From Pararhodobacter sp. (GTDB lineage Bacteria > Pseudomonadota > Alphaproteobacteria > Rhodobacterales > Rhodobacteraceae): DNA of 32,274 bases. The first letter of the stretch is position 1. The number at the start of each line of letters is the position of its first letter. The notes below the pieces were generated by a model. It made no database searches and was not told where the DNA came from. It was given only the letters and a program-made list of their open reading frames with translations. The stretch lies in assembly GCA_020832665.1 (NCBI GenBank), contig JAFIEG010000046.1, positions 1 to 32,274 on the forward strand, written 5' to 3'. Position numbers and translations under genes: made by a program. Positions 13,928 to 30,273 of the stretch are shown one piece after another.

Positions 13928-15799
13928 ATGTCGGTTTGCGTTTTTTTTCGTGGTTTTCGTGGCCTTGTAGCTTCTCTTGCCTGTTTGCCCCTGCTTTTGT
14001 TACCGGCGGCCCTGTCGGCGGAAACACCACGCATCGTGCAGCTCGCAGTCGGCAATGCCTTTTCCTGCGCGCTGGACAGTAACGAACAGGTCTGGTGCTG
14101 GGGCGGCATCAATGTTGACGCCGACTCCGATGAAGACGACTGGGATTTCGAACCGCACCTGACCCCGGTACGGTTCGAAAGGCTTGGCACCGTCCGTGTG
14201 CTGGCGGCACACCACGATGCGGGCCACATATGCATGATCAACGAATTCCAGCGCGTTTTCTGCTGGGGGTGGAATAATGTTGGCCAGTTGGGCGATGGCA
14301 CCACGACAAACCGCTATACCCCGGTGCGGGTCGAGGGGTTGGGGCCGGCTCAGGCGCTGGTGGTTGGCTCCAATCATTCCTGCGCAATCGATGGCCGCGA
14401 CCGCATCTTCTGCTGGGGCAGCAACTCACATGGCCAGCTTGGCGACGGCACAACCGAGACACGGTTGACGCCATCTAGGGTGCGTGTGTTGCGCACCGGC
14501 TCGGCACTGGCCGCCGGAGGGGCACATACCTGCGCGCTTGACCTCGACGGACGCGCGCATTGTTGGGGGTGGAACGGGCGAGGCCAAATCGGTGACGGCA
14601 GCACCGAGACCCGGTTGACGCCCGAGCGGGTGAGAAATCTCGCGCGAAGCAGCATGCTTTCGCTGGGTACAAGCCACTCCTGCGCGCTCGACCTCAGCGG
14701 GCATGCCAACTGTTGGGGGTGGAACCAATTCGGTGAGCTTGGCGACGGCACCACCGAACAACGTTTGACACCGGCGAGGGTGCAGAACCTGTGGCGCAAC
14801 ACGTCGCTTGCGGCGAGTTCGGGTCATTCCTGCGCCGTCACGCGCCATGGCCGCGTCCGTTGCTGGGGATGGAACTGGAATGGCCAGTTGGGCGATGGCA
14901 CTAGAGCGGATCGCCTGGCCCCGGTGCTGGTCCCCAACTTGGATTCGGTTGAAGAATTGAGTTTGGGGTTAGCACATACCTGCGCCCTCACCGAGGAAGG
15001 CCGGGTTTTCTGCTGGGGGTGGAACCAATTCGGTCAGCTTGGCGACGGCACCACCGAGGATCGCCTGACGCCAGTTGAGGTCGCCTTTCCGACGAACGAA
15101 CCGCCGCTGTTTCCGATCGCGGGGTTTGACGAAAACCCAATTGAACGTATCAATCACTGCTACGGCGCGCACAACCGCAATCACTTCGAGGAGCGGTACA
15201 ATTACATTCGGGGCCAGTATCACACTGGCGTCGACCTGCGCACTAGAGATCTCAACACGCCGATTGTGCGCGCGCCGGTGGACGGCGAAATAGTCTATTA
15301 CCGGAGACGCAGCAACAGCGATCCCAACCCAGACTGGAACCAGACCTTCGCTGTCCTCCGAGGCGATGACGGCCATGACTACATCCTTGCCCACATGAAC
15401 TGCAATCGGACCGACGACGATGGGGTGCCTTACTGCGACGAAAGCCGAGCGATGATCACAGACACCGAAGCCTACCCGCCGGAAGCATGGCGCCGCGTCG
15501 AGCGGGGGACGGTTCTCGGAGAGGTCCCGAATTTCCAGATGCAATCCCCGCACTTGCATCTCGGTGTCGTGACCCGGCCTATTGTTGACGAACGCGGCGT
15601 ACTTATCTCGGAATTCCACTGTGCGTTCTGGGCCCGTATCCCGTTTGCCGGCCAGACGGGCTGCGCGGACAACAACCGCACGCGCCCTCAAGCCCGACGA
15701 CATGCTCTCAATCTTGGCTTCATTGACCCGCTTTCACTCTATGCCGAGCACACAACCTGTGAGTGCCTGTACAGCGAGCCTTACTGCCCTACTTGGTAA
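13928..15799 (+). CDS. Secreted seven-blade RCC1 propeller fused to an M23 metallopeptidase domain
   Basis: A 623-residue exported protein in two parts after a signal peptide (about 1-31, ending ALSA). Residues 38-390 are seven RCC1 blades, each with the pattern S/T-C-A ... CWG.N..GQLGDGTT. Blades 2-7 are exactly 50 residues apart (first Cys at 102, 152, 202, 252, 302, 352), and each blade has two Cys ten apart, probably a disulfide. Residues about 400-605 carry all M23/LytM catalytic positions: H432xxxD436, H489 (LAHM) and H542xH544, so an active zinc endopeptidase is likely. M23 enzymes cut peptidoglycan cross-bridges; RCC1 propellers usually bind partners. Third-position bias is weaker than in its neighbours, which hints at transfer. 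A run of eight T lies in codons 5-8. The promoter is uncertain (TTGGCG 13864, TAGCCT 13886). Confidence 0.85.
   Translation: MSVCVFFRGFRGLVASLACLPLLLLPAALSAETPRIVQLAVGNAFSCALDSNEQVWCWGGINVDADSDEDDWDFEPHLTPVRFERLGTVRVLAAHHDAGHICMINEFQRVFCWGWNNVGQLGDGTTTNRYTPVRVEGLGPAQALVVGSNHSCAIDGRDRIFCWGSNSHGQLGDGTTETRLTPSRVRVLRTGSALAAGGAHTCALDLDGRAHCWGWNGRGQIGDGSTETRLTPERVRNLARSSMLSLGTSHSCALDLSGHANCWGWNQFGELGDGTTEQRLTPARVQNLWRNTSLAASSGHSCAVTRHGRVRCWGWNWNGQLGDGTRADRLAPVLVPNLDSVEELSLGLAHTCALTEEGRVFCWGWNQFGQLGDGTTEDRLTPVEVAFPTNEPPLFPIAGFDENPIERINHCYGAHNRNHFEERYNYIRGQYHTGVDLRTRDLNTPIVRAPVDGEIVYYRRRSNSDPNPDWNQTFAVLRGDDGHDYILAHMNCNRTDDDGVPYCDESRAMITDTEAYPPEAWRRVERGTVLGEVPNFQMQSPHLHLGVVTRPIVDERGVLISEFHCAFWARIPFAGQTGCADNNRTRPQARRHALNLGFIDPLSLYAEHTTCECLYSEPYCPTW
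14201..15100 (+). repeat. Six tandem 150-base coding repeats (RCC1 blades 2-7)
   Basis: Blades 2 to 7 of the propeller gene repeat with an exact 150-base period. The best conserved block encodes CWGWN..GQLGDGTT and begins near 14261, 14411, 14561, 14711, 14861 and 15011. The DNA is alike in each unit (TGCTGGGG or TGTTGGGG, then GGCGA-GGCA), so unequal crossing-over could add or remove blades. Confidence 0.8.
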
Positions 15800-19126: not shown

Positions 19127-20596
19127 ATGCTGCAGATCCGCTTCGACAACAGCTATGCGCGCGAGCTTGAGGGCATGTATGTGCCCTGGCAGGGCAGCCG
19201 CGCCCCGGCGCCGAAGATGCTTTTGCTCAACGAGGTGCTGGCCGATGAGCTGGGCCTCGATGCGCAGGCGCTGCAATCGCCCGAGGGGCTGGCCATGCTC
19301 ACCGGTTCGGCCATGCCCGAGGGCGCCAGCCCGCTGGCCATGGCTTATGCCGGGCACCAGTTCGGCGGTTTCTCGCCGCAGCTTGGCGACGGCCGCGCGC
19401 TGCTGGTGGGCGAGGTGATCAACCGCCAGGGCCGCCGGCGCGACATTCATCTGAAGGGCTCGGGGCGCACCCCCTTTGCGCGCGGCGGCGACGGCAAGGC
19501 CGCGCTCGGGCCGGTCTTGCGCGAATACATCATCGGCGAAGCAATGGCGGCGCTGGGCATTCCCACCACCCGCGCGCTGGCGGCGGTGGCCACGGGCGAG
19601 ACCGTCTTGCGCGAAGAGCCGCTGCCCGGCGCGGTGCTGGCACGCGTCGGGGCCAGCCATCTGCGCGTCGGCAGCTTCCAGTTCTTCCTGGCGCGCGGCG
19701 ACATCGCCAGCCTGAAACGCCTGGCCGACTACGCCATCCGTCGCCATGACCCCGAACTGGAAGGGCGCGATGACTGCTATCTTGCCTTCCTCCAGGCAGT
19801 GACGGCGCGGCAGATGGCGCTGGTGGCGCAATGGATGGCGGTGGGTTTCGTGCATGGGGTGATGAACACTGACAATTGCGCGATCTCGGGCGAGACCATC
19901 GATTACGGCCCCTGCGCCTTTGTCGATGTCTACGACCCGCAGGCGGTGTTCAGCTCGATCGACACCGGCGGGCGCTACGCCTATGCCAACCAACCGCTGT
20001 TGGCGCAGTGGAATCTGGCACGGCTGGCCGAGACGCTCTTGCCGCTGATCGCGCCGGAAAACCCCGAATCGGCGCTGCCCGAGGCGCGCGCGGTGATTGA
20101 CGGCGCCGCCGGTATTTACACGCAGGAGCGCCGCCGCCGCTTCGGTGCAAAGCTGGGGCTGGCCGCGCCCGGGGAAGATGACGAGGCGCTGATCGACGGT
20201 TTTCTGGACATGCTCGCTGCCAAAGGCGCCGATTTCACGCAAAGCTTCCGCGCGCTCATCGATGCCGCCGGCGGCGACGCGGCGGCGCTCTCAGCGCAGT
20301 TGCGCAGCGCGCCGGGGCTGAATGACTGGCTGACGCGCTGGCGCAAGCGGCTGGATGCCGAAAAGGACGGCGCGGCGGGCGCGGTGGCGCGGATGCAGGC
20401 GGCTAACCCGGTCTATATCCCACGCAATCATCTTGTCGAGGCGGCGCTGGCCGACGCCCAAGGCGGCAATCTGGAAACCACCCGCCGGCTGCTCGAGGCG
20501 CTGGCGCAGCCCTTCACCGAGTGCGCCGGGTTCGAAGCCTACGCGGCGCCCGCGCCCAGCGGTTTCGGCCCTTATGTCACCTATTGCGGCACCTGA
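19127..20596 (+). CDS. selO: Protein adenylyltransferase SelO (YdiU family)
   Basis: SelO is a pseudokinase-fold enzyme that transfers AMP to protein Ser/Thr/Tyr residues and has been linked to oxidative-stress responses. The 489-residue protein is family length. It keeps AMAYAGHQFGGFSPQLGDGRA, the nucleotide-binding HLKGSGRTPFARGGDG (Lys110) and HGVMNTDNCAISGETIDYGP, with Asp249 as probable catalytic base and Asp259 as metal ligand. Eukaryotic members carry selenocysteine near the C-terminus; here Cys487 stands three residues from the end, so a Cys version is present. GAAGGAAAGG precedes the ATG closely. It appears to be a single-gene unit with its own promoter. Confidence 0.94.
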   Translation: MLQIRFDNSYARELEGMYVPWQGSRAPAPKMLLLNEVLADELGLDAQALQSPEGLAMLTGSAMPEGASPLAMAYAGHQFGGFSPQLGDGRALLVGEVINRQGRRRDIHLKGSGRTPFARGGDGKAALGPVLREYIIGEAMAALGIPTTRALAAVATGETVLREEPLPGAVLARVGASHLRVGSFQFFLARGDIASLKRLADYAIRRHDPELEGRDDCYLAFLQAVTARQMALVAQWMAVGFVHGVMNTDNCAISGETIDYGPCAFVDVYDPQAVFSSIDTGGRYAYANQPLLAQWNLARLAETLLPLIAPENPESALPEARAVIDGAAGIYTQERRRRFGAKLGLAAPGEDDEALIDGFLDMLAAKGADFTQSFRALIDAAGGDAAALSAQLRSAPGLNDWLTRWRKRLDAEKDGAAGAVARMQAANPVYIPRNHLVEAALADAQGGNLETTRRLLEALAQPFTECAGFEAYAAPAPSGFGPYVTYCGT

Positions 20597-20860: not shown

Positions 20861-22030
20861 TCAGTCGTCGGCATCAAGCCGTTCGATCAACTGCCAGACG
20901 CCATCCTGGACCTGCGAGATGGTGATCACGTTCGAGCCGCGGTGATCTTCGGGCGAGAACGAGATCTGCACGTCGAGCAGCGGTTCGTAGACATCGATCG
21001 AATACATCCCGTCCATGAAGCTTTCCAGCGTCAGGTCAGGCCCGGCCGCTTCGAGCGCCGTGTGGATGATCCGCGCCGACACATAGCCCAGCATGGCAAA
21101 GCCGCCCGGCTGCTCGCCATAGCGGGCGCGGAACAGTTCGACGAATTCTTCCATTTCGGGCTCATCGACGCGCGCCTGCAGGTCAACCCAGCTGGCGGCG
21201 GCGTAAAGCCCTTCGGTGGCTCCGCCGGGCACGCCGGCGACTGCCTCGTGGAAGCCGGCCGAGCTGACCAGGAAGACCGCGTCATCCCAGCCCAGGCGCT
21301 GCGCGGTGACATAGACGGTGATCGCGGCGCGAACGCCCAGCGCCACGGTGACGGCATCGCAGCCGGCCGAGCGCAGGCGGGTCAGGGCGCCGACATAATC
21401 CTGCTCGTCGGGGCGGTGAGTGGTGCTGTCCAGCAGTTCCAGCCCCAGCATCTCGGCACCGTCGCGCGTGCCCTCGAAGATCTCCTCGCCGAAATCGGTG
21501 GGCAGATACATCGAGCACACGCTCTCGATGCCGCGTTCAGCCTGCAGGTAGCGCAGACCTTCGATCATCTCGTTGTAATAGGTGCCGATCAGGGCAAAGT
21601 TCAGCCCCGGCGGTTCGGGCAGGATCTGGCGCGCGGCGGTGAGCGGGAACAGGTTCGGCACCTGCCGGCGCTCCATCAGCGGGTAATGGGTGACGTTGTG
21701 CGGCGTGCCCAGGTTCGACAGCATGAAGAACACCTGGTCGCGTTCGATGAGCTTGTTGAAGGCCTGGGTGGCGCGCGGCAGCTGATAGCCGTGATCCTCG
21801 ACAATGTAGCGTATGGTGCGGCCATGCACGCCACCGGCCTCGTTGAGCGCGTCGAAATAGAGGTTGGCGCCGTTCACCGCCGGGGTCGAAACGGCCGCGA
21901 ACACGCCTGAAAGGTCATGCGCGCCGCCGATCACGATTTCCGTGTCGGTCACGCCACGGGTCTGCGCATGGGCGCCGACCGCCAGCGTGGTGGCCGCCGC
22001 AGCGGCCAGGATGGTCTTGAGATGCTTCAT
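20861..22030 (-). CDS. Branched-chain amino acid-type ABC transporter, periplasmic binding protein
   Basis: A 389-residue solute-binding protein of the LivJ/LivK (HAAT) family. A signal peptide ends AHA near residue 22, and the mature protein starts with the family's TDTEIVIGGAHDLSGVFA segment. The type-1 binding fold continues to the C-terminus. It is the last gene of the operon, 38 bases after the acyl-CoA synthetase gene, with a strong GGGGAGGA ribosome site. The extra site allows more product than the permeases, as binding proteins require. Family members bind amino acids, amides, aromatic acids or fatty-acid-like compounds; the CoA ligase beside it points to a carboxylic acid. Confidence 0.9.
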   Translation of the reverse strand: MKHLKTILAAAAATTLAVGAHAQTRGVTDTEIVIGGAHDLSGVFAAVSTPAVNGANLYFDALNEAGGVHGRTIRYIVEDHGYQLPRATQAFNKLIERDQVFFMLSNLGTPHNVTHYPLMERRQVPNLFPLTAARQILPEPPGLNFALIGTYYNEMIEGLRYLQAERGIESVCSMYLPTDFGEEIFEGTRDGAEMLGLELLDSTTHRPDEQDYVGALTRLRSAGCDAVTVALGVRAAITVYVTAQRLGWDDAVFLVSSAGFHEAVAGVPGGATEGLYAAASWVDLQARVDEPEMEEFVELFRARYGEQPGGFAMLGYVSARIIHTALEAAGPDLTLESFMDGMYSIDVYEPLLDVQISFSPEDHRGSNVITISQVQDGVWQLIERLDADD

Positions 22031-22068
22031 GGTTTCCTCCCCTTAACGAGCCCTTTTCGGGCCACGAC

Positions 22069-23928
22069 TCAATACATATCATCAATCAGCGCGGCGTGGC
22101 GTTTTTCAACCGTCGCGCGTTTGAGTTTCATCGTCGCCGTCAGTTCTTCATCCTCGGCGGTCAGCAGCACGTCGATCAGGCGGAAATCCTTGATCTGCTC
22201 GACGCGGGCGAATTCGCGGTTGACCTGATCGACCTCGCGCTTGATCAGATCGACGATCTCGGGCGCGCGGCACAGGCTGCGGAAGTCAGAGAACGGCACC
22301 TTGTGGTCCTGCGCGTATTTCTCGACATTCTCCTGATCGATCATGATAAGCGCGGTCAGGAATTTGCGCTTGTCGCCGATGATCACCGCATCGGAAATGT
22401 AATGGCTGAATTTCAGCCGGCTTTCGATCTCGGCGGGGGTAATGTTCTTGCCGCCGGCGGTGATGATGATGTCCTTCATCCGGCCGGTGATGGTGAGATA
22501 GCCATCCTCGTCGATACGGCCGATATCACCGGTTTTCAGCCAGTTATCCTCGGCAAAGGTCTCGGCGGTCTTGTCGGGCTTGTTCAGGTAGCCGGTGAAC
22601 ACGTTCAGCCCCTTTACCTGAATCTCGTCGAACTCGCCGATGCGGACCTGCACGCCGGGAATGGCGCGCCCGACCGTGCCGACGCGGTTGGCGCCGGGCA
22701 GGTTGAGCGTGGACACGCCCGAAGTTTCAGACATGCCGAAACCCTCGACAAGCGGCACGCCGATGGCGTTGTACCAGCGCAGAAGCTCGGGCGAGATCGG
22801 TGCGGCGCCGGTCACCCCGCTCATCAGGCGGTCCATGCCCAGCATCCGGCGCAGATTGCGCAGCACCAGCATATCCCACAGCCAGTACCAGGCGGCGGTG
22901 AAAAGCGGCACGGGCTTGCCTTCGAGCGTGTAGGCGCTGCGCGCATGCCCGGCACGTACGGCAGTGGCGAAGGCCACACGCCCCACCCAGGTGGCGTCCT
23001 GAGCCATTACCAGCACCCGCGAATAGACCTTTTCCCACACCCGCGGCACGGCGACGAAGCCATGCGGCGACACCTCGCGCAGATTGTCGAACACGGTTTC
23101 GGGGCTTTCGGCGAAATTGACCGTCGAGGACACCATCAGCGGCGTGTAGAGCGACACCAGCCGCTCAAGGATGTGGCACAGCGGCAGAAAGCAAAGCTGC
23201 TCGGCGCCCTGATCGAAGGGCAGGCCATGGATGGCCGATTCCATGCCCGCGAGGATGTTCTCATGGGTGAGCATCACGCCCTTCGGGTCGCCCGTGGTGC
23301 CCGAGGTGTAGATCAGCACCGCCAGGTCCTCGGGTTTCACCGCGTCGATCGAGCGGTTGAAGGCGTCGTCGTCATCATGCGCGCGGCCGAGATTGTAGAG
23401 ATCGGACAGGAACATGCATTTGGGATGCGAAAAGCTGTGCAGCCCTTCCGGGTCCTGGATGATGACCTTGACCAGCGAGGGCATCTGATCCTCGACCTCG
23501 AGGAACTTGTCGAGCTGCTCCTCGTTCTCGACGAACAGGAAGCGCGTTTGCGAATCATTGACCAGATAGGAGACCTGGCGCGCGCTGTCGGTGGTATAGA
23601 TGCCCGACGAGACCGCGCCCATGCACTGCGCGGCCATGTCGATATACATCCATTCCTTGTTGTCCTCGGACAAGATCGAGACCACATCGCCCCGCTCCAG
23701 CCCCAGCGCGCGCAGCCCCATGGCAATCAGCCGCGCATTGGCCAGATAATCGCTCCAGGAATGGGCCTGCCAGATGCCCAGCTCCTTTTCGCGATGCGCC
23801 GTCGCCGCGCCATTTGCCAGGCAGCGCGCGCGTAAAAGCGCCGGCAGCGTCTTGTAGCCGTCGATCTGCACGGGGCGCGTGCCGGGGGTCGCGTTGACCC
23901 GCACGCCCTTGACGATCTTTTCCTCCAT
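22069..23928 (-). CDS. AMP-dependent acyl-CoA synthetase (long-chain fatty-acid-CoA ligase type)
   Basis: A 619-residue adenylate-forming enzyme that activates a carboxylic acid to its CoA thioester through an acyl-AMP. Motifs in order: the P-loop TSGTTGDPKG (208-217), GAAPIS, VEGFGMSET, WLKTGDIGRIDEDGYL and the hinge GRMKDIIITAGGKN. The size and sequence resemble FadD15-type ligases rather than short-chain acetyl-CoA synthetases. I chose ATG 23928 because GGGAGGA precedes it; an ATG at 23952 would overlap livF. Its place between livF and the binding protein suggests that it activates the transported substrate at the membrane. The substrate is not readable from sequence. Confidence 0.92.
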   Translation of the reverse strand: MEEKIVKGVRVNATPGTRPVQIDGYKTLPALLRARCLANGAATAHREKELGIWQAHSWSDYLANARLIAMGLRALGLERGDVVSILSEDNKEWMYIDMAAQCMGAVSSGIYTTDSARQVSYLVNDSQTRFLFVENEEQLDKFLEVEDQMPSLVKVIIQDPEGLHSFSHPKCMFLSDLYNLGRAHDDDDAFNRSIDAVKPEDLAVLIYTSGTTGDPKGVMLTHENILAGMESAIHGLPFDQGAEQLCFLPLCHILERLVSLYTPLMVSSTVNFAESPETVFDNLREVSPHGFVAVPRVWEKVYSRVLVMAQDATWVGRVAFATAVRAGHARSAYTLEGKPVPLFTAAWYWLWDMLVLRNLRRMLGMDRLMSGVTGAAPISPELLRWYNAIGVPLVEGFGMSETSGVSTLNLPGANRVGTVGRAIPGVQVRIGEFDEIQVKGLNVFTGYLNKPDKTAETFAEDNWLKTGDIGRIDEDGYLTITGRMKDIIITAGGKNITPAEIESRLKFSHYISDAVIIGDKRKFLTALIMIDQENVEKYAQDHKVPFSDFRSLCRAPEIVDLIKREVDQVNREFARVEQIKDFRLIDVLLTAEDEELTATMKLKRATVEKRHAALIDDMY

Positions 23929-23942
23929 GGCCGTTCCTCCCG

Positions 23943-24713
23943 TTACCGCCATGTCTTGCGCTTCTTCCAGCGCCGCTCGCCGCGCGCGCCCTCATTGGCA
24001 TGGCCAAGATAAAAGCGCTGGATATCCTCCGACGCGGCCAGCCGCTCGGCGGTATCGGACATCACGATGCGGCCCAGCTCCATCACATAGCCCTGGTCGG
24101 CCAGGTCCAGCGCCACGGCGGCGTTTTGCTCGACCACCAGCATGGTCACGCCCTCATCCTTGTTCAGCCGCTTGAGAATGGCGAAGATCTCTTGCGTCAG
24201 GATCGGCGACAGCCCCAGGCTGGGCTCGTCAAGCAGCATGATGCGGGGCTTGAGCATGAGCCCGCGACCGATGGCCAGCATTTGCTGCTGTCCGCCCGAA
24301 AGCGTGCCCGCCTCTTGCTGGCGGCGCTCTTTCAGGATGGGGAAATACTCGAAGACCAGATCGCGCGCGCGGGCGATCTCGGCGCGGTTCGATTTCGTGT
24401 AGGCGCCGAGGCTGAGATTCTCGTCAACCGTCAGAAGCGGGAACACCTCGCGCCCCTCGGGCACCTGCACGATGCCCCGGCGCACGATCTGGTGCGGCTC
24501 GCGGCCCTGGATTTCCTCGCCATCGAAGACGATGCGGCCCTTTTCCGGGTCCATGATGCCGGAAATGGTTTTCAGGAGCGTGGTCTTGCCGGCGCCATTG
24601 GCGCCCAGCACGGTCACCACCTGGCCCTGATGCACATCAAGGCTGACCCCGCGAATGGCCACGATGGGGCCGTAATAGGTTTCGAGATTGCGAACTTCCA
24701 GCAGCGCGCTCAT
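23943..24713 (-). CDS. livF: Branched-chain amino acid-type ABC transporter ATPase LivF
   Basis: One of two ATPase subunits of the importer, on the cytoplasmic face of the inner membrane. The 256 residues carry Walker A GANGAGKT, a Q-loop region (RRGIVQVPEGREVFP), the signature LSGGQQQM, Walker B IMLLDEPSLGLSP and a switch His in the VVEQNAA region replaced as is usual in LivF. Its ATG overlaps the livG stop in ATGA (24710-24713). The C-terminal tail is very basic (GERRWKKRKTWR), longer than in E. coli LivF. Confidence 0.94.
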   Translation of the reverse strand: MSALLEVRNLETYYGPIVAIRGVSLDVHQGQVVTVLGANGAGKTTLLKTISGIMDPEKGRIVFDGEEIQGREPHQIVRRGIVQVPEGREVFPLLTVDENLSLGAYTKSNRAEIARARDLVFEYFPILKERRQQEAGTLSGGQQQMLAIGRGLMLKPRIMLLDEPSLGLSPILTQEIFAILKRLNKDEGVTMLVVEQNAAVALDLADQGYVMELGRIVMSDTAERLAASEDIQRFYLGHANEGARGERRWKKRKTWR

Positions 24714-25510
24714 ACCCGCTCTCCCGTCGCCGAGGCGGTCTTGGAAATGGCGCCGGTGCCCAGATAGGCCTCGATCACCTTCGGGTGCTTCTGCACCTCA
24801 TTCGCCGTGCCCTCGGCCAGCTTCTTGCCGCCATCGAGCGCCAGCACGCGGTCGGAAACCTTGCCCACCAGCCCCATGTCGTGCTCGACCATCAGCACCG
24901 TGATGCCCATCTGGCGGCGGATATCCTCGATCCACCAGCGCATGTCCTGCGTCTCTTCCACCGACAGGCCCGAGGCCGGCTCGTCAAGCAGCAACAGCCG
25001 CGGTTTCGACGCCAGCGCGCGCGCCAGTTCGACCACCTTGCGCACGCCATAGGGCAGGCCCATGATGTACTTGTCACGATAGGCTTGCAGATCGAGGAAT
25101 TCGATCACCTCTTCCACCGCGTGGCGATGAGCGCGCTCCTCGCGCCACGAGCGCCCGGCAAAGAACATCTCTTCCACCAGGGTGGTGCGCCGGTGGCGGT
25201 GGCGGCCGACCAGCAGGTTCTGCAGCACCGTGGCGCGCTCAAATAGCTCGATGTTCTGGAATGTGCGCGCGATGCCCAGCCGCGGCACATTGTGCGGCTT
25301 GAGCTTCAGCAGATCCTCGCCATCAAAGGTGATCGAGCCGGCAAAGGGCGTATAGAAGCGCGAGATCATGTTGAACACGGTCGATTTGCCCGCGCCGTTG
25401 GGGCCGACCAGGGCAAAGACCTGCCCCTCCTCCACCGACATGGTCAGATCGTTCACCGCGGTGACGCCGCCGAATTTCAGCGTGACATTCTTCAGTTCAA
25501 GCAGGCTCAT
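24710..25510 (-). CDS. livG: Branched-chain amino acid-type ABC transporter ATPase LivG
   Basis: The partner ATPase of the importer, 266 residues. Walker A GPNGAGKS, Q-loop ARTFQNIELF, Walker B LLLLDEPASGLS and switch His in VEHDMGLV are canonical. The ABC signature is unusual: where LSYGQQ or LSGGQ is expected there is LPYGVRKVVELARAL. Similar LPYG forms occur in relatives linked to CoA-ligase-containing operons as far as I recall, so this may mark a subfamily rather than a defect. The start at 25510 overlaps the livM stop by four bases (ATGA). Confidence 0.93.
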   Translation of the reverse strand: MSLLELKNVTLKFGGVTAVNDLTMSVEEGQVFALVGPNGAGKSTVFNMISRFYTPFAGSITFDGEDLLKLKPHNVPRLGIARTFQNIELFERATVLQNLLVGRHRHRRTTLVEEMFFAGRSWREERAHRHAVEEVIEFLDLQAYRDKYIMGLPYGVRKVVELARALASKPRLLLLDEPASGLSVEETQDMRWWIEDIRRQMGITVLMVEHDMGLVGKVSDRVLALDGGKKLAEGTANEVQKHPKVIEAYLGTGAISKTASATGERV

Positions 25511-26586
25511 CTCACGCGCTCCGTCTTCAGATAGCTCTTCTGACGGCGGAACATGTCGCGCCGGGCGAAGGGGAACAGCTCGAACCAGGTGCGAATCTTC
25601 AGCCAGCGGCCGTAAAGACCCATCGGCTCGAAGACGATGAAGAAGATCAGGATCGCGCCGAAGACGCCGAATTCCAGCCCCGGCACGCTCATCCAGCGGA
25701 AACTGTCGGTCACGATCGACAGCCCCTGTGGCAGGAAGGCGATGACGATCGCGCCCAGGAACGCACCGTGGATGAAGCCCATGCCACCCACCACGATCAT
25801 CATCAGCAGCTGGATGGCGATGAGGAAGGTGAAGGTTTCGTTGTTGAAAGCCCCGGCGAACAGCCCCATCAGCGCGCCGCCCAGCCCGGTGATGGCGCAG
25901 GAAAGGCCAAAGGCGATGGTCTTGGTGCGCGCCACATTGATACCCATCGCCTGCGCCGACACCTCGCTGTCGCGCACCGCGGCAAAGGCGCGCCCCAGCG
26001 GCGAGCGCAGCAGGTTGCGATAGATCAGCGTGACGATAATCACGATCGCCAGCACCATGTAATACCAGTATTCCGGGTTGACGTAGCGGTTGACCTCGAC
26101 CCCGAAGAGAACGATGTCGGGCGCAAGCATGCCGTTCACGCCGCCGGTCCACTGGCGCAGGATGACGATGATGTCCTCGGTAATGATGGCCAGCGCCAGC
26201 GTGGCGATGGCCAGATAGACGCCATGCAGCCGCAGCGCCGGCACCGCGATCAGCGCCCCCACCACCCCGGTGATGATGCCAGCCAGCGGAAAGGCCAGCA
26301 GGAAGGGAACGCCGGCATTCATCAGGATGGCACAGGTATAGCAGCCCAGCGCCATGAAGGCCGAATGGCCAAGGCTGATCTGGCCGGTCTGGCCGGTCAG
26401 AAGCATCAGCCCCAGCCCGGCCACCGCCCAGATCATGACATTGGTGACCTCGCTCAGGAAGAAACTGTCGAGCAGCAGCGGCAGTGACACCATCGCCAGC
26501 AGCAGCGCACCATAGGCCGAAAAGTTCCACCAGTCGGGGAAAAGGCGGATGTCGTGGTCGTAGCTTGTCTTGAAGTGAAAGCGCAT
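25507..26586 (-). CDS. livM: Branched-chain amino acid-type ABC transporter permease LivM
   Basis: Inner-membrane permease of 359 residues with about nine or ten hydrophobic helices. The family segment GLGLMLLTGQTGQISLGHSA and the cytoplasmic coupling loop SPLGRAFAAVRDSEVSAQAMGIN are clear. An N-terminal extension (about 1-25) precedes the first helix and a basic tail ends the protein. ATG 26586 stands four bases after the livH stop, with AAGG upstream; an in-frame ATG at 26643 would lie well inside livH. It pairs with LivH to form the membrane channel. Confidence 0.93.
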   Translation of the reverse strand: MRFHFKTSYDHDIRLFPDWWNFSAYGALLLAMVSLPLLLDSFFLSEVTNVMIWAVAGLGLMLLTGQTGQISLGHSAFMALGCYTCAILMNAGVPFLLAFPLAGIITGVVGALIAVPALRLHGVYLAIATLALAIITEDIIVILRQWTGGVNGMLAPDIVLFGVEVNRYVNPEYWYYMVLAIVIIVTLIYRNLLRSPLGRAFAAVRDSEVSAQAMGINVARTKTIAFGLSCAITGLGGALMGLFAGAFNNETFTFLIAIQLLMMIVVGGMGFIHGAFLGAIVIAFLPQGLSIVTDSFRWMSVPGLEFGVFGAILIFFIVFEPMGLYGRWLKIRTWFELFPFARRDMFRRQKSYLKTERVR

Positions 26587-26590
26587 GGGG

Positions 26591-27466
26591 TCACACCTTC
26601 TTCGTGCGGACCTGCGCGAACAGGCCGTGCGGGCGGAAGACAAGCACCAGGATCAAAAGCACATAGGGCGCCAGTTGGCCGTAGCCCGCCGGCAGGTAGC
26701 GCGAGGCGAAGGGCTCGATCACGCCCACGATCAGCCCGCCCATCAGCGCCCCGGGCAACGAGCCGAAGCCGCCGATCACCGCCGCCGCGAAGGCCTTGAT
26801 GCCGATGAAGCCCGCCGAAATGTCGAGCGAGCCTTTCGAGCCGTAAAGAATGCCGGCCACGCAGGCCACCACCGCAGCCAGCGCCCAGACCGCGCCCTGC
26901 ACGCGCTTGACCGGGATGCCCATGTAATAGGCCGCCATCTGGTTCTGGCTGGCCGCCTGCATGGCCAGCCCCAGCCGCGTGCGCTGGAAGAACTGCCACA
27001 GCATGATGGTCAGAATAACGGTGACGATGATCACCGCCAGATCGGCCATGGAGATCACCACGCCAAAGGCGCGCACATCGCCCAGCGCCAGTGGCGAATG
27101 CAGGTTCATCGGCTCATGGCCGAAGATCACGCCGGTGACGAAGCGAATGACGAAGCCCAGCGCGATGGTCAGGATGACGATCGCCACCTGGTTCTGCCCG
27201 AAAAGCGAGCGCAGAATGGTGATGTCGAGCAGATAGCCCAGCGCCCCCATGATCAGCAGCGCCAGCGGCACCGCCAGCCAGAAATTGATGCCCAGGAAAT
27301 GGGGGTTCACCAGCCCGACCATTACGAAGGCGCCGAGCATCATGAAATCGCCCTGGGCAAAATTGACGGCTTCGGTGGCCTTGTAGATCAGCACGAAACC
27401 AAGCGCGATCAGCCCGTAGACGCAGCCATTCGCCAGACCGCTGATCAGCAGTTGCATGAATTCCAT
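26591..27466 (-). CDS. livH: Branched-chain amino acid-type ABC transporter permease LivH
   Basis: First gene of the operon: a 291-residue inner-membrane permease with about eight hydrophobic helices. The family's opening (QLLISGLANGCVYGLIALGF), the NFAQGDFMMLGAF segment and the coupling loop TRLGLAMQAASQNQMAAYYMGI are present. I chose ATG 27466, which follows GGGAGGG by seven bases, over the in-frame ATG at 27499. The promoter must lie in 27467-27913, shared with the divergent transglutaminase-like gene. Confidence 0.93.
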   Translation of the reverse strand: MEFMQLLISGLANGCVYGLIALGFVLIYKATEAVNFAQGDFMMLGAFVMVGLVNPHFLGINFWLAVPLALLIMGALGYLLDITILRSLFGQNQVAIVILTIALGFVIRFVTGVIFGHEPMNLHSPLALGDVRAFGVVISMADLAVIIVTVILTIMLWQFFQRTRLGLAMQAASQNQMAAYYMGIPVKRVQGAVWALAAVVACVAGILYGSKGSLDISAGFIGIKAFAAAVIGGFGSLPGALMGGLIVGVIEPFASRYLPAGYGQLAPYVLLILVLVFRPHGLFAQVRTKKV

Positions 27467-27913
27467 TCTGCGGCCCTCCCAAGCCGTCAGCATCGCCACC
27501 CCATTCTCGCTTGCGGCAGGGCGGTCTGTTCATTGATGCGACCTTCGCACAATTGCCTTTCGCGTATCGCGTTTCAACAGATTTCGCGCCGCTGACTGCC
27601 CGGGCGACGCAACGGAAGGCACGCCCCGAAACCGGATGGCAAGGCGATTTGCAGTGGGCAAAAAGGTGGCAACCAGATGGCGAAAACCGGGCACAAGATG
27701 GGCAAAAAAGCGAAGAAATCCCCTCCACAGCCCCTTGGACAAGCCATACATGCACAATCTAAGCGTGATTTGACAGACTGTTACTCGCGATTAAGGCTTC
27801 TTTGTGGCGGGTTTAGAGGCTATTCTTCATCCAGCGCAGCGCAGCGCGCCATGCCCTGCCAGCAAGGCCGCGGGCCAAGGAAAACGAAAGACAAGAGAAC
27901 AGAGGGAACCGCC
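27467..27913. promoter_or_regulatory. Divergent control region between the liv-type operon and the transglutaminase-like gene
   Basis: No gene is seen in these 447 bases. An inverted repeat TTTGC-N5-GCAAA occupies 27648-27662, within a purine-rich stretch (27633-27715) with repeated GATGGCAA, GGGCAAAAA and GATGGCGAAAA variants. A perfect -35 box TTGACA lies at 27770-27775, with only weak -10 choices (TAAGGC at 27792) toward the plus-strand gene. The promoter of the liv operon was not identified with confidence. Confidence 0.4.
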
Positions 27914-29005
27914 ATGACAATTCACGCCGCCAGAACCGCGCAGCACGATCTGCCCGAGGCATTTCGGGATTCGGTTCTCGGGCTCTATCTTGACGATTAC
28001 GCCGCCCCCGTTTTCACTCAGGGCCGGCTTTCGACGCTGCAGCCTGGGCAGGCAATGGTGCCAGCCGGAGAAGGCGCGCTGCATGTGTTGCTGCATGGCA
28101 GGCTTTCGGGCAAGGATGACTGGTATGGGCCGGGCAATCATTTCGATGACGCATCCGCCGAGGGGCTGGCGGCATCCGGTGGCCCTGCCATGCTGTGGAC
28201 GATCGAAACCGTCGCCAACGCCTGGCTGGCGGCAGTGCAGCGCCCCGCGCGGCTGGCGCTGGCGCGCGCGTTGATCGCGGCCGATACCGCCGAGCTGGCC
28301 GCCCGCCCCCCGGTCGAGCGCCCCAACCCGACCACCCTTTGCGACCTCGATCACCCCGCGATACGCCGTCAGGCGGTGCGGCTGCGCCGTGCCACCCCGG
28401 CCTCGACCGCCAAGGCGATCTTTCATTTCGTGCAGGTCATGCCCTATCGCTTCGGCCATTGGCACGAGCGTGCATCCGAGACGTTGGCGCGCGGGGTGGG
28501 GATGTGCACCACCAAGGCCAATTTGCAGGTTGCGCTGATGCGTGCGGCGGGGCTTGAGGCCGGTTTCGTGGAAACGCCGATGCCGATGTCCAAGCTCGGC
28601 CGGCTGATGCCCGATGGCTGGCTGGCGCTGATGCGCAACGAGGTGCGCCACTATTTCGCCGCCGTGAAGCTGGGCGGGCGCTGGCACGCCGCCGATGCAT
28701 CCTATGACGAGCCCGCCTTTCGCATCTATATCGAATCGATGCCCGAACTGGGCTATCTGTTGCCCGCCTGGCTTGACGAAGGCCGGCCCTATCACTCGGC
28801 CGCCGCCGCCAAGGGCGACGATCCCTGGGATATCACCGTGGTGCCGGATCTGAACGATGTTATGGGCAAGCAAAGCCGCTTCGGCCCGCGCCATTTCGAG
28901 GCGCTGAATACGCGGGTTGATCGCGCGCGCGGCGCGCAGCGGCGCATCGCGCGGGGCGAGGATGGCGAGTTGCTGGGTGGGGCCGCAGGAGAGGTGTCGG
29001 CATGA
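27914..29005 (+). CDS. Transglutaminase-like protein with a cNMP-binding-like N-terminal domain
   Basis: A 363-residue cytoplasmic protein; no signal peptide. Residues about 150-275 form a transglutaminase/protease-like core: GVGMCTTKANLQVALMRAAGL with Cys198, RHYFAAVKLGGRWHAADASYD with His246 and Asp261, a complete Cys-His-Asp triad. Residues about 30-128 read like a Crp-type cyclic-nucleotide-binding domain (LQPGQ..VPAGEGALHVLLHGRL, GPGNHF, then a helix NAWLAAVQRPARLALARAL), though its nucleotide-pocket residues are not clearly kept. Such a fusion suggests a ligand-gated thiol enzyme; this is inference. The substrate is unknown. Its stop overlaps the start of the CoaBC-like gene (ATGA, 29002-29005), so the two products are probably made together. 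Confidence 0.75.
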   Translation: MTIHAARTAQHDLPEAFRDSVLGLYLDDYAAPVFTQGRLSTLQPGQAMVPAGEGALHVLLHGRLSGKDDWYGPGNHFDDASAEGLAASGGPAMLWTIETVANAWLAAVQRPARLALARALIAADTAELAARPPVERPNPTTLCDLDHPAIRRQAVRLRRATPASTAKAIFHFVQVMPYRFGHWHERASETLARGVGMCTTKANLQVALMRAAGLEAGFVETPMPMSKLGRLMPDGWLALMRNEVRHYFAAVKLGGRWHAADASYDEPAFRIYIESMPELGYLLPAWLDEGRPYHSAAAAKGDDPWDITVVPDLNDVMGKQSRFGPRHFEALNTRVDRARGAQRRIARGEDGELLGGAAGEVSA

Positions 29006-30273
29006 GCCCTTTCGATTGGGATTTCTCGGCCCCCACCCCCTCGCCGATGGGCGATCATGACGTGCCGCGCGCTTCAGACCGGTTGGAGGGGCGGCGCGTG
29101 GCGCTCCTGGTCACTGGCGGCATCGCGGCGATGAAGACGCCCGAGATCGCCCGCAGCCTGCGCCGGCATGGCGCGCAGGTGGTGGCGTTCGCCAGCGAGG
29201 ACGCGCTGCGTTATGTCGGGCGCGAGGCGCTGGAATGGGCCACGCTGGGCCCGGTGGTGACAGGGCTGAGCTGGGCCGCAGAGCATCTGTCGGATGGCGC
29301 GCCGTTTGATGCCTATCTGGTAGCGCCGGCGACGCATTCCACCATCGCCAAGATGGCGCATGGCATTGGCGACACGGTGGTCACCTCGGCGCTGATATCC
29401 GCGCTGGGGCGGATGGAACAGGGGCGCACGCAGGTGCTGGTGGCGCCCACCATGCACGGCACCATGCACAATGCGCAGCTTCTCGATAACGCCCGCCGAC
29501 TGGCCGCTCAGGGGGTGCGCTTCATCACCCCGCGCGACGCCTACGGCAAGCACAACCTGCCCGATACCGAGGTCCTGTGCATCGCGCTGGGTCGCGCGCT
29601 GTCGCGTTCGCCGCTCAAGGGCAAGCGCATCATGGTCACCGCCGGGCCGACGCCGGTGCCCATCGACGGCGTGCGTCGCATCGTCAACCGTTTTCGCGGC
29701 CGGCTGGGCGCACGCGTGGCCGAGGAACTGACATGGCGCGGGGCCGAGGCCGAGCTGATCCTGGGCGATGGCGCCTGGCGGCCGCGCGCGCCGATCCCGC
29801 TGACGGTAACGCGCAGCTTTGACGATTACCGCGACACGGTGCTGGCGCGGGCGCGCGGCAAGCTTTTCGCCGGGGTGTTCTCCGCCGGGGTGGCCGATTA
29901 CCGCCCTAAAAAGGCGGTGGTGGGCAAGATCGCCTCGGGGCAGTCCTCGCTGGTGCTGGAGCTGGAGCCCACCGAAAAGGTGATCGACCTCGCCTGCGCC
30001 GCCAATCCGGAGATGCATTGCATTGCCTTCAAGTATCTTGAGGGCGTCAGCGAGGAAGAACTGGTGCGCGTCGCCTCGAAACGGCTGGGCCGAGCCGGGC
30101 TGGTGGTGGCCACGCGCGGCGAGGATACGCGCGGGGTAGAGCAGCGCGCGCTTCTGGTCACTGCGCAGGGCGTCGAGCCGGTGGAGGACAAGCGCGCCAT
30201 CGCCGAGCGCATCGCCGCGTATCTGGAGGCGGTGGCAAGGCAGCGGGGCAACCTCGAGGCCGCCGCCGAATGA
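29002..30273 (+). CDS. Divergent CoaBC-like flavoprotein (phosphopantothenoylcysteine decarboxylase/ligase family)
   Basis: A 423-residue two-domain relative of CoaBC (Dfp). The N-terminal flavoprotein half has VALLVTGGIAAMK, the catalytic-type His95 sixteen residues before the Thr of LVAPAT, and THSTIAKMAHGI. The substrate clamp PAMN..MW is altered to PTMHGTMH (149-156), and the lid Cys loop is shortened around Cys193. The C-terminal CoaB-like half starts VTAGPTPVPIDGVR with Asn229 kept, but SSGK is FRGR and KIKK is KIAS. True CoaBC keeps these motifs, so this is probably a paralogue with another substrate, working with the coupled transglutaminase-like protein. It has about 30 extra N-terminal residues. 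An automatic label of coaBC would be doubtful. Confidence 0.75.
   Translation: MSPFDWDFSAPTPSPMGDHDVPRASDRLEGRRVALLVTGGIAAMKTPEIARSLRRHGAQVVAFASEDALRYVGREALEWATLGPVVTGLSWAAEHLSDGAPFDAYLVAPATHSTIAKMAHGIGDTVVTSALISALGRMEQGRTQVLVAPTMHGTMHNAQLLDNARRLAAQGVRFITPRDAYGKHNLPDTEVLCIALGRALSRSPLKGKRIMVTAGPTPVPIDGVRRIVNRFRGRLGARVAEELTWRGAEAELILGDGAWRPRAPIPLTVTRSFDDYRDTVLARARGKLFAGVFSAGVADYRPKKAVVGKIASGQSSLVLELEPTEKVIDLACAANPEMHCIAFKYLEGVSEEELVRVASKRLGRAGLVVATRGEDTRGVEQRALLVTAQGVEPVEDKRAIAERIAAYLEAVARQRGNLEAAAE

Follow-up and report, generated by a model that had tools for sequence, protein, structure and literature searches.

A divergent CoaBC-like gene adjoins a gene for a CRP-type and transglutaminase-like protein in Pararhodobacter sp.

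We have analyzed a stretch of 32,274 nucleotides from Pararhodobacter sp. (GCA_020832665.1, contig JAFIEG010000046.1, here called the window), and in particular two adjacent plus-strand genes within it. The first gene, P1, occupies positions 27914 to 29005 and specifies 363 amino acids, with an N-terminal fold of the type that binds cyclic nucleotide monophosphates (cNMP) followed by a transglutaminase-like core; the second, P2 (29002 to 30273; 423 amino acids), specifies a protein of a divergent class related to CoaBC, the bifunctional phosphopantothenoylcysteine decarboxylase/synthetase of coenzyme A (CoA) synthesis. The stop codon of P1 and the start codon of P2 overlap in the 4 bases ATGA at 29002-29005, as had been stated in a first-pass annotation that called the genes a coupled pair, and the same overlap recurred in 18 of the 28 loci in which P1 is full length (the remaining gaps were +1 to +33); translation of the 2 genes may well be coupled in this way. 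Elsewhere in the genome of the window lies a canonical CoaBC (G000:C42, 415 amino acids), which scored 369.5 bits against TIGR00521, the NCBI CoaBC equivalog. P2, which is ~30% identical to that protein, is therefore a second CoaBC-like gene of this genome and not the sole copy. The closest named relatives in the collection we searched carry the labels Pararhodobacter or Rhodobacteraceae.

P2 matched the Pfam families Flavoprotein (9.3e-20) and DFP (2.9e-25), in the order CoaC domain then CoaB domain, and the AlphaFold model of P2 had a mean predicted local distance difference test score (pLDDT) of 92.2. Its best match in the PDB by Foldseek (E 1.1e-26) was 6tgv, the CoaBC of Mycobacterium smegmatis, which was solved with flavin mononucleotide (FMN) and cytidine triphosphate (CTP) (PMC7794376). 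The earlier assignment of P2 to the cysteine-decarboxylase (CoaBC) family of flavoproteins is borne out by these matches. The CoaC-like half lies at 29095 to 29601 (residues 32-200) and includes the segments TGGIAAMK, AEHLSD, PATHSTIAK, PTMHGTMH and GKHNLPD; the CoaB-like half lies at 29614 to 30231 (residues 205-410). We aligned 81 members of the P2 class, 12 of which are short, and used the 69 full-length rows for the CoaB half. His95 (codon at 29284 to 29286), which corresponds to the CoaC catalytic His in the comparison with M. smegmatis CoaBC, was found in all 81 rows, as were His152 (29455 to 29457), in place of the Asn of the PxMN motif, and Lys183 (29548 to 29550), in a short flap that is specific to the class (GKHN in P2). 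This shorter flap, which reads GKHNLPD in the window, contains Cys in none of the 81 rows. Within the CoaB half, Arg225, Asp299 and Lys309 were each present in 69/69 rows and Asn229 in 53/69; the corresponding functional residues described for M. smegmatis are R207, N211 and D281, together with a KxKK loop (PMC7794376). Six pairwise comparisons gave dN/dS (the ratio of nonsynonymous to synonymous substitution rates) of 0.15-0.21 for P2, which indicates purifying selection.

The Asn of PxMNxxMW has been assigned to the first step of decarboxylation and a redox-active flap Cys to the second (PMC9604783). We considered the altered CoaC motifs of P2 as proof of lost decarboxylase activity and dropped this idea on finding that M. 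smegmatis CoaBC has identical changes, namely His for the PxMN Asn (APAMHTEMW) and a flap that lacks Cys; the changes in P2 can accordingly be reconciled with an active enzyme. Thus, the altered motifs claimed in the first-pass annotation are present throughout the class, but they do not by themselves imply new chemistry, both because M. smegmatis CoaBC shares them and because P2-type proteins look like the only CoaBC of several genomes, as described below. In the 6tgv alignment M. smegmatis CoaBC itself lacks both residues, the PxMN Asn and the flap Cys, that are regarded as necessary for decarboxylation, and something else would have to take their place there.

The core of P1 matched Transglut_core (PF01841; Pfam 2.4e-10) at positions 28388 to 28699 (residues 159-262), and the same family was found in 26/26 aligned P1 members (Pfam, E up to 1); at the same limit, NCBIfam had no family that matched P1. 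In the 27 aligned rows the predicted nucleophile, Cys198 (codon at 28505 to 28507), and His246 (28649 to 28651) were invariant and Asp261 (28694 to 28696) was nearly so, with Glu in L051. The putative catalytic triad is kept, and the Cys-His-Asp transglutaminase core that had been proposed for P1 is well supported by the alignment. In front of this core, positions 27971 to 28303 (residues 20-130) are predicted from the secondary structure of the P1 model, and from Foldseek, to form a helix, beta-roll and C-helix of the CRP/cNMP type. The model had a mean pLDDT of 90.4 (alignment of 26 rows), and 45 of the 50 PDB matches listed by Foldseek were cyclic-nucleotide-binding or CRP/FNR-type proteins (best E 7.2e-4), the other 5 being cysteine-protease- or transglutaminase-like (best E 7.9e-5). 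The E-values were modest, with 4 at or below 0.001 among the 50 matches listed. Judged by this model, the sensor-type fold in P1 is real, as the Crp-like N-terminal domain of the earlier description would require, and it is probably an ancestral cNMP-type fold.

The binding of a ligand at this fold is another matter. Pfam cNMP_binding matched 4/26 P1 homologues (best 5e-13) and had no match in the P1 of the window itself. The motif GE[ILV][AG]...R[TSA], which we take to be the form of the cNMP phosphate-binding cassette, was kept in 3/26 homologues (L050, L051 and L055) and was absent from 23/26 P1 proteins, that of the window included. Also, the N-terminal domain was 41-49% identical in six pairwise comparisons, as against 63-79% for the core, with P1 as a whole under purifying selection (dN/dS 0.22-0.42). 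Binding of a nucleotide or other ligand by P1 in the window organism thus appears doubtful, and with it the control by a small ligand that had been suggested for the pair.

We scanned a collection of 84,980 species with the P2 alignment and two peptide patterns, and kept the best 80 of 96 confirmed stretches; with 2 patterns and 80 stretches, both the class and the pair are under-counted. Adjacency was derived from a direct search for open reading frames (ORFs) on the same strand, together with tblastn. A homologue of P1 was found in 31 of these 80 P2-type loci, always directly upstream of P2 and on the same strand. These 31 loci span alpha-, beta- and gammaproteobacteria and deltaproteobacterial or Myxococcota genomes, and include Rhodobacteraceae, 2 Saccharospirillum, 3 Burkholderiales metagenome assemblies, 2 deltaproteobacterial/Myxococcota assemblies and 2 Thiotrichaceae. 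Full-length P1 genes were seen in 28 loci (one of them, L032, with a masked stretch), 2 genes were cut by contig ends (L034 and L040), and 1 was broken (L057). In the last of these, from Candidatus Thiomargarita nelsonii, P1 is split into several frames (L057:7632-7990) and the adjoining P2 is open throughout.

In genome samples nearer to the window, P1 was found in 17/18 genomes of the genus, the window genome included (E up to 1e-5), and in 9/9 genus loci that we read P2 followed P1 with the 4-base overlap, one of these P2 genes being cut at the end of the locus; the genus set and the collection set of loci overlap. Full-length P1 was present in 2/198 genomes of the family sample (the window genome and G179; E up to 1e-5), and in G179 P2 follows P1 after 12 bases. 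The class sample had a P1 match in 1/385 genomes at 1e-8, which was the window genome, and the gammaproteobacterial sample had full-length P1 in 1/369 genomes at 1e-12, a Saccharospirillum (G597). All full-length P1 matches in these three samples adjoin P2. The adjacency, for which a check across genomes had been proposed, is clearly not specific to one strain, and the 31/80 loci together with the recurrent 4-base overlap rule out a chance arrangement. P1 and P2 distances were correlated (r = 0.88 over 27 loci and the window), a value that shared descent alone would also give. Genes flanking the pair differ between genera, as seen in the 63/80 loci that our gene caller handled; this greedy longest-ORF caller was misled by ORFs on the antisense strand of GC-rich DNA, and the other 17/80 yielded no result. 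We set aside the possibility of plasmid cargo, as P1 had no plasmid match at 1e-5. A different gene occupies the position of P1 in eight P2-type loci that are planctomycete or unnamed: a 3'-5' exonuclease gene with an HRDC domain (RNase D-like), located directly upstream of P2 at L069:6664-7992, with matching genes in L070, L071, L072, L075, L076, L079 and L083, overlaps the P2 start by 4 bases.

As judged by sequence comparisons, P2 is most likely a member of a second, divergent class of CoaBC that suffices alone for the synthesis of CoA in several lineages. A single branch (100/100) of an unrooted 46-row tree separated 41 rows of the P2 class from 5 canonical CoaBCs, with a warning from the tool that long branches meet at this branch; the P1-P2 pair was found at two places of the P2 tree. 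Canonical and P2-type forms excluded each other in the cyanobacterial sample. In 146 genomes from the phylum of Microcystis (G608, the P2-type centre of the sample and itself counted), a P2-type match of 589-672 bits, unaccompanied by any other at E up to 1e-10, was seen in 12; in 131 the matches did not exceed 208 bits, 3 lacked matches altogether, and no genome had both types. A free-living cyanobacterium must make CoA, and the class therefore very probably performs the job of CoaBC in those cyanobacteria in which the P2-type protein is the only match. Such replacement of the canonical form would also support, indirectly, the binding of FMN, CTP-dependent ligation and decarboxylation by P2-type proteins. 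Among 149 genomes around the planctomycete G613, again with the centre included, 3 had a P2-type protein (669, 421 and 343 bits) as a single match each, 140 had only lower matches (203 bits or less) and 6 had none.

We also searched 26 genomes with class members for PF04127, and assigned the matches to class loci by their coordinates. The P2-type protein was the only PF04127 protein in 15 of them, 8 held two such proteins (the P2-type and a higher-scoring one of canonical type), and in 3 (G620-G622) the PF04127 protein was distinct from the class member, which has the N-terminal half only. A search of 23 genomes with PF02441 gave few proteins besides the P2-type; four of the extra proteins from P2-only genomes (L116, L117, L120 and L121) and one from Saccharospirillum (L119) are UbiX. 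A free CoaC-like half of the P2 class, of 205-217 amino acids, was observed in L094-L099 and L101-L103, from some planctomycete-type genomes. Both G620 (L095) and G621 (L097), which have the CoaC half only, have a separate CoaB-type protein; G622 (L100) is an exception to the overall pattern of the class, in that this genome has both a class member with only the CoaC-like half and a canonical-type DFP protein.

The clade that includes the window differs from this picture in having both proteins, and it can be recognized by residue 371 of P2, which in the 69 full-length rows was Thr in 28, Asn in 40 and Ser in 1. The Thr371 type comprises Rhodobacteraceae (the window included), Saccharospirillum and Burkholderiales, and all 28 of its rows have His112 and Ala116; the 40 Asn371 rows have Tyr112 (40/40) and either Asn116 (38) or Gly116 (2). 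Each of the 6 Thr371-type genomes searched with PF04127 (G597-G602) held a second DFP protein of canonical type, although in G599 and G601 the frames are of 251 and 234 amino acids and may represent a separate CoaB or a broken gene. Two further genomes have both CoaBC types and are not Thr371: G603 has Asn and a P1 gene, and G605 has Ser and lacks P1. M. smegmatis CoaBC likewise lacks A-N-D around position 371, which weakens the weight that can be given to the change to Thr. We read the P2 of the window clade as a redundant copy that has been remodelled together with P1; we prefer remodelling over decay because selection has stayed purifying on both genes.

Comparison with known systems places the pair near several of them. 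CoaBC (Dfp), with 6tgv as the nearest structure, shares both domains, their order and their fold with P2, and P2 keeps His95, Arg225, Asn229, Asp299 and Lys309. The P2 class differs in having its own N-terminal extension (WDF.PPTPS.LGDHDVP), TGGIAAMK in most members, MH...H, the short GK(H/N)N flap, and one Lys where others have KxKK. As far as sequences can tell, P2 would work like CoaBC yet fails several of the canonical features tested, and its pairing with a CRP-transglutaminase protein appears to be new. P1 resembles the transglutaminase-like cysteine peptidases (Transglut_core; 3isr and 9crn TglA) in core fold and triad, but its core is preceded by a CRP-type domain and its gene is coupled to a CoaBC-like gene. 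The N-terminal fold of the P1 model is that of cyclic-nucleotide-binding proteins (CRP, GlxR, PycTIR), in which respect P1 differs by leading into a transglutaminase core rather than a DNA-binding domain and, in 23/26 proteins, by the missing cassette. The yeast proteins Hal3, Cab3 and Vhs3 are not known to have a CoaB half. They are paralogues of phosphopantothenoylcysteine decarboxylase with altered catalytic residues, one being kept for regulation, and so offer a parallel to P2; they are fungal, however, and regulate a phosphatase, and the portion of PMC9604783 at hand mentions no transglutaminase partner. Our literature searches, within their limits, found neither a divergent class of CoaBC described from cyanobacteria or planctomycetes nor any account of a cNMP-transglutaminase/CoaBC pair.

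We propose a mechanism to which we give about an even chance of being correct: P1 and P2, made in a fixed ratio, would act on one pantetheine-type metabolite with a thiol or amide group. P2, which in the window clade accompanies the canonical CoaBC as an additional copy and has motif positions at which changes have become fixed, would build or decarboxylate a cysteine amide. P1, made together with it, would be a Cys-His-Asp enzyme of the transglutaminase fold, with a CRP-type domain largely stripped of its nucleotide site, and would either transfer or hydrolyse an acyl or amide bond by way of a Cys198 acyl-enzyme or gate P2 directly. To this extent the undescribed modification or coenzyme-related pathway suggested in the first-pass annotation is possible. 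A more elaborate version, which we regard as unlikely, would have the pair make or edit a non-standard pantetheine: P2 would attach an acyl group to cysteine, or to a different aminothiol, and decarboxylate the product, and P1 would move the acyl or thiol unit to an amine to give an undescribed CoA-like cofactor or protein-bound thiol, with ancestral control by a cyclic nucleotide or a 3'-phosphoadenosine-type ligand at the CRP domain.

Several observations weigh against the proposed mechanism and the class assignment behind it. P2 scored 190.6 bits against TIGR00521, under the cut-off of 219.7, and in its KxKK loop only the first Lys is kept (Lys at the second position in 8/69 rows and at the third in 0/69); because of these two features a loss of CoaB ligase activity is conceivable, and the redundant P2 of the window clade could have lost it. 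The link between changes in P2 and presence of canonical CoaBC comes from one clade, and hence from one event. No P1 was found in 49/80 P2-type loci, some of them on short contigs, and P1 is therefore dispensable for the basic job of the class. Neighbour clustering, over the 63/80 loci handled, gave no third gene across genera that might point to a substrate. Finally, several key genomes are metagenome assemblies.

The main rival takes P1 as a pure regulator or protease: a thiol protease of the transglutaminase fold, active or not, would bind or clip P2 or canonical CoaBC and so tune CoA synthesis, the CRP-type domain being ancestrally a nucleotide sensor. The regulatory fold in the P1 model, the three homologues that keep the cassette, the faster change of P1 than of P2, and the 4-base overlap, which suggests equal amounts and complex formation, would all be consistent with this role. 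We consider it less likely than the mechanism above, in that the cassette was lost from 23/26 proteins in which the triad stays, a pattern more easily explained if the enzyme, rather than the sensor, has been retained. Quite improbable, in our estimation, is a P2 that is a redundant, decaying CoaBC xenologue with P1 as a passenger transferred along with it. The canonical CoaBC of the window genome and Thr371 in 28/69 rows, as against Asn in 40, can be cited in its favour; purifying selection on P2, and the keeping of the coupled pair in several branches at two places of the P2 tree, argue otherwise.

Two further rivals would take the pair out of CoA metabolism. In NCBIfam, P2 weakly resembled the decarboxylases of the CypD type (E 0.001, as for 15/37 family members at 0.001), and it adjoins a transglutaminase-fold peptidase, from which a system like those for ribosomally synthesized and post-translationally modified peptides might be imagined, the flavoprotein half decarboxylating a C-terminal cysteine as EpiD or CypD does and P1 acting as peptidase or peptide acyltransferase. 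We consider this very improbable: a peptide decarboxylase would have no use for the complete CoaB half of P2, in which every full-length row has Arg225, Asp299 and Lys309; in L006 the next gene lies only ~130 bp from P1, leaving little room for a precursor gene; and clustering revealed no third gene common across genera, with the proviso that it failed for 17/80 loci and ignored ORFs below 70 amino acids, and that no search for small ORFs was made. Also extremely unlikely is a Pycsar-type defence effector, gated by a nucleotide, in which a protease would stand where Pycsar has its TIR or membrane effector. Among the 50 Foldseek matches listed for P1, the highest target-normalised template-modelling score (0.58) did belong to the cNMP domain of PycTIR (8jsj). 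Against this, PADLOC had no match for P1 or P2 at 0.01; P2 is CoaBC-like and not a cyclase, and a Pfam scan of 20 other ORFs of the window revealed no nucleotide cyclase; P1 occurs in nearly all genomes of its genus, unlike patchy defence genes; and P1 matched no plasmid and, in the window, has lost the cassette.

The usual picture of CoA synthesis is of a single route that relies, in bacteria, on a single CoaBC. If a distinct class takes the place of the canonical form in scattered lineages (some cyanobacteria, including Microcystis, Thiotrichaceae, some planctomycetes and SAR324), its flap and CTP loop being different, nature would have provided an experiment in how the second step of decarboxylation proceeds without the flap cysteine. 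The pairing with a sensor-transglutaminase protein hints, moreover, at an unrecognized side branch of CoA metabolism, or at an unrecognized point of its control.

With regard to the remainder of the window, a promoter scan gave nothing and RNA families had no match, and the terminator-like sites numbered 4, near the mean of shuffled sequences (2.4, standard deviation 1.5). A perfect 10-bp inverted repeat with an 8-base loop lies directly 3' of P2 (30301-30328), without a T run. Divergent from the pair, on the minus strand at 20861-27499, are genes for a branched-chain-type ATP-binding cassette transporter and an AMP-binding enzyme that is like acyl-CoA ligases. Further away are a gene for the protein adenylyltransferase SelO (19127-20596) and one for a 623-amino acid protein built of RCC1-type repeats (13928-15799), a kind of protein that is, to our knowledge, uncommon in bacteria.

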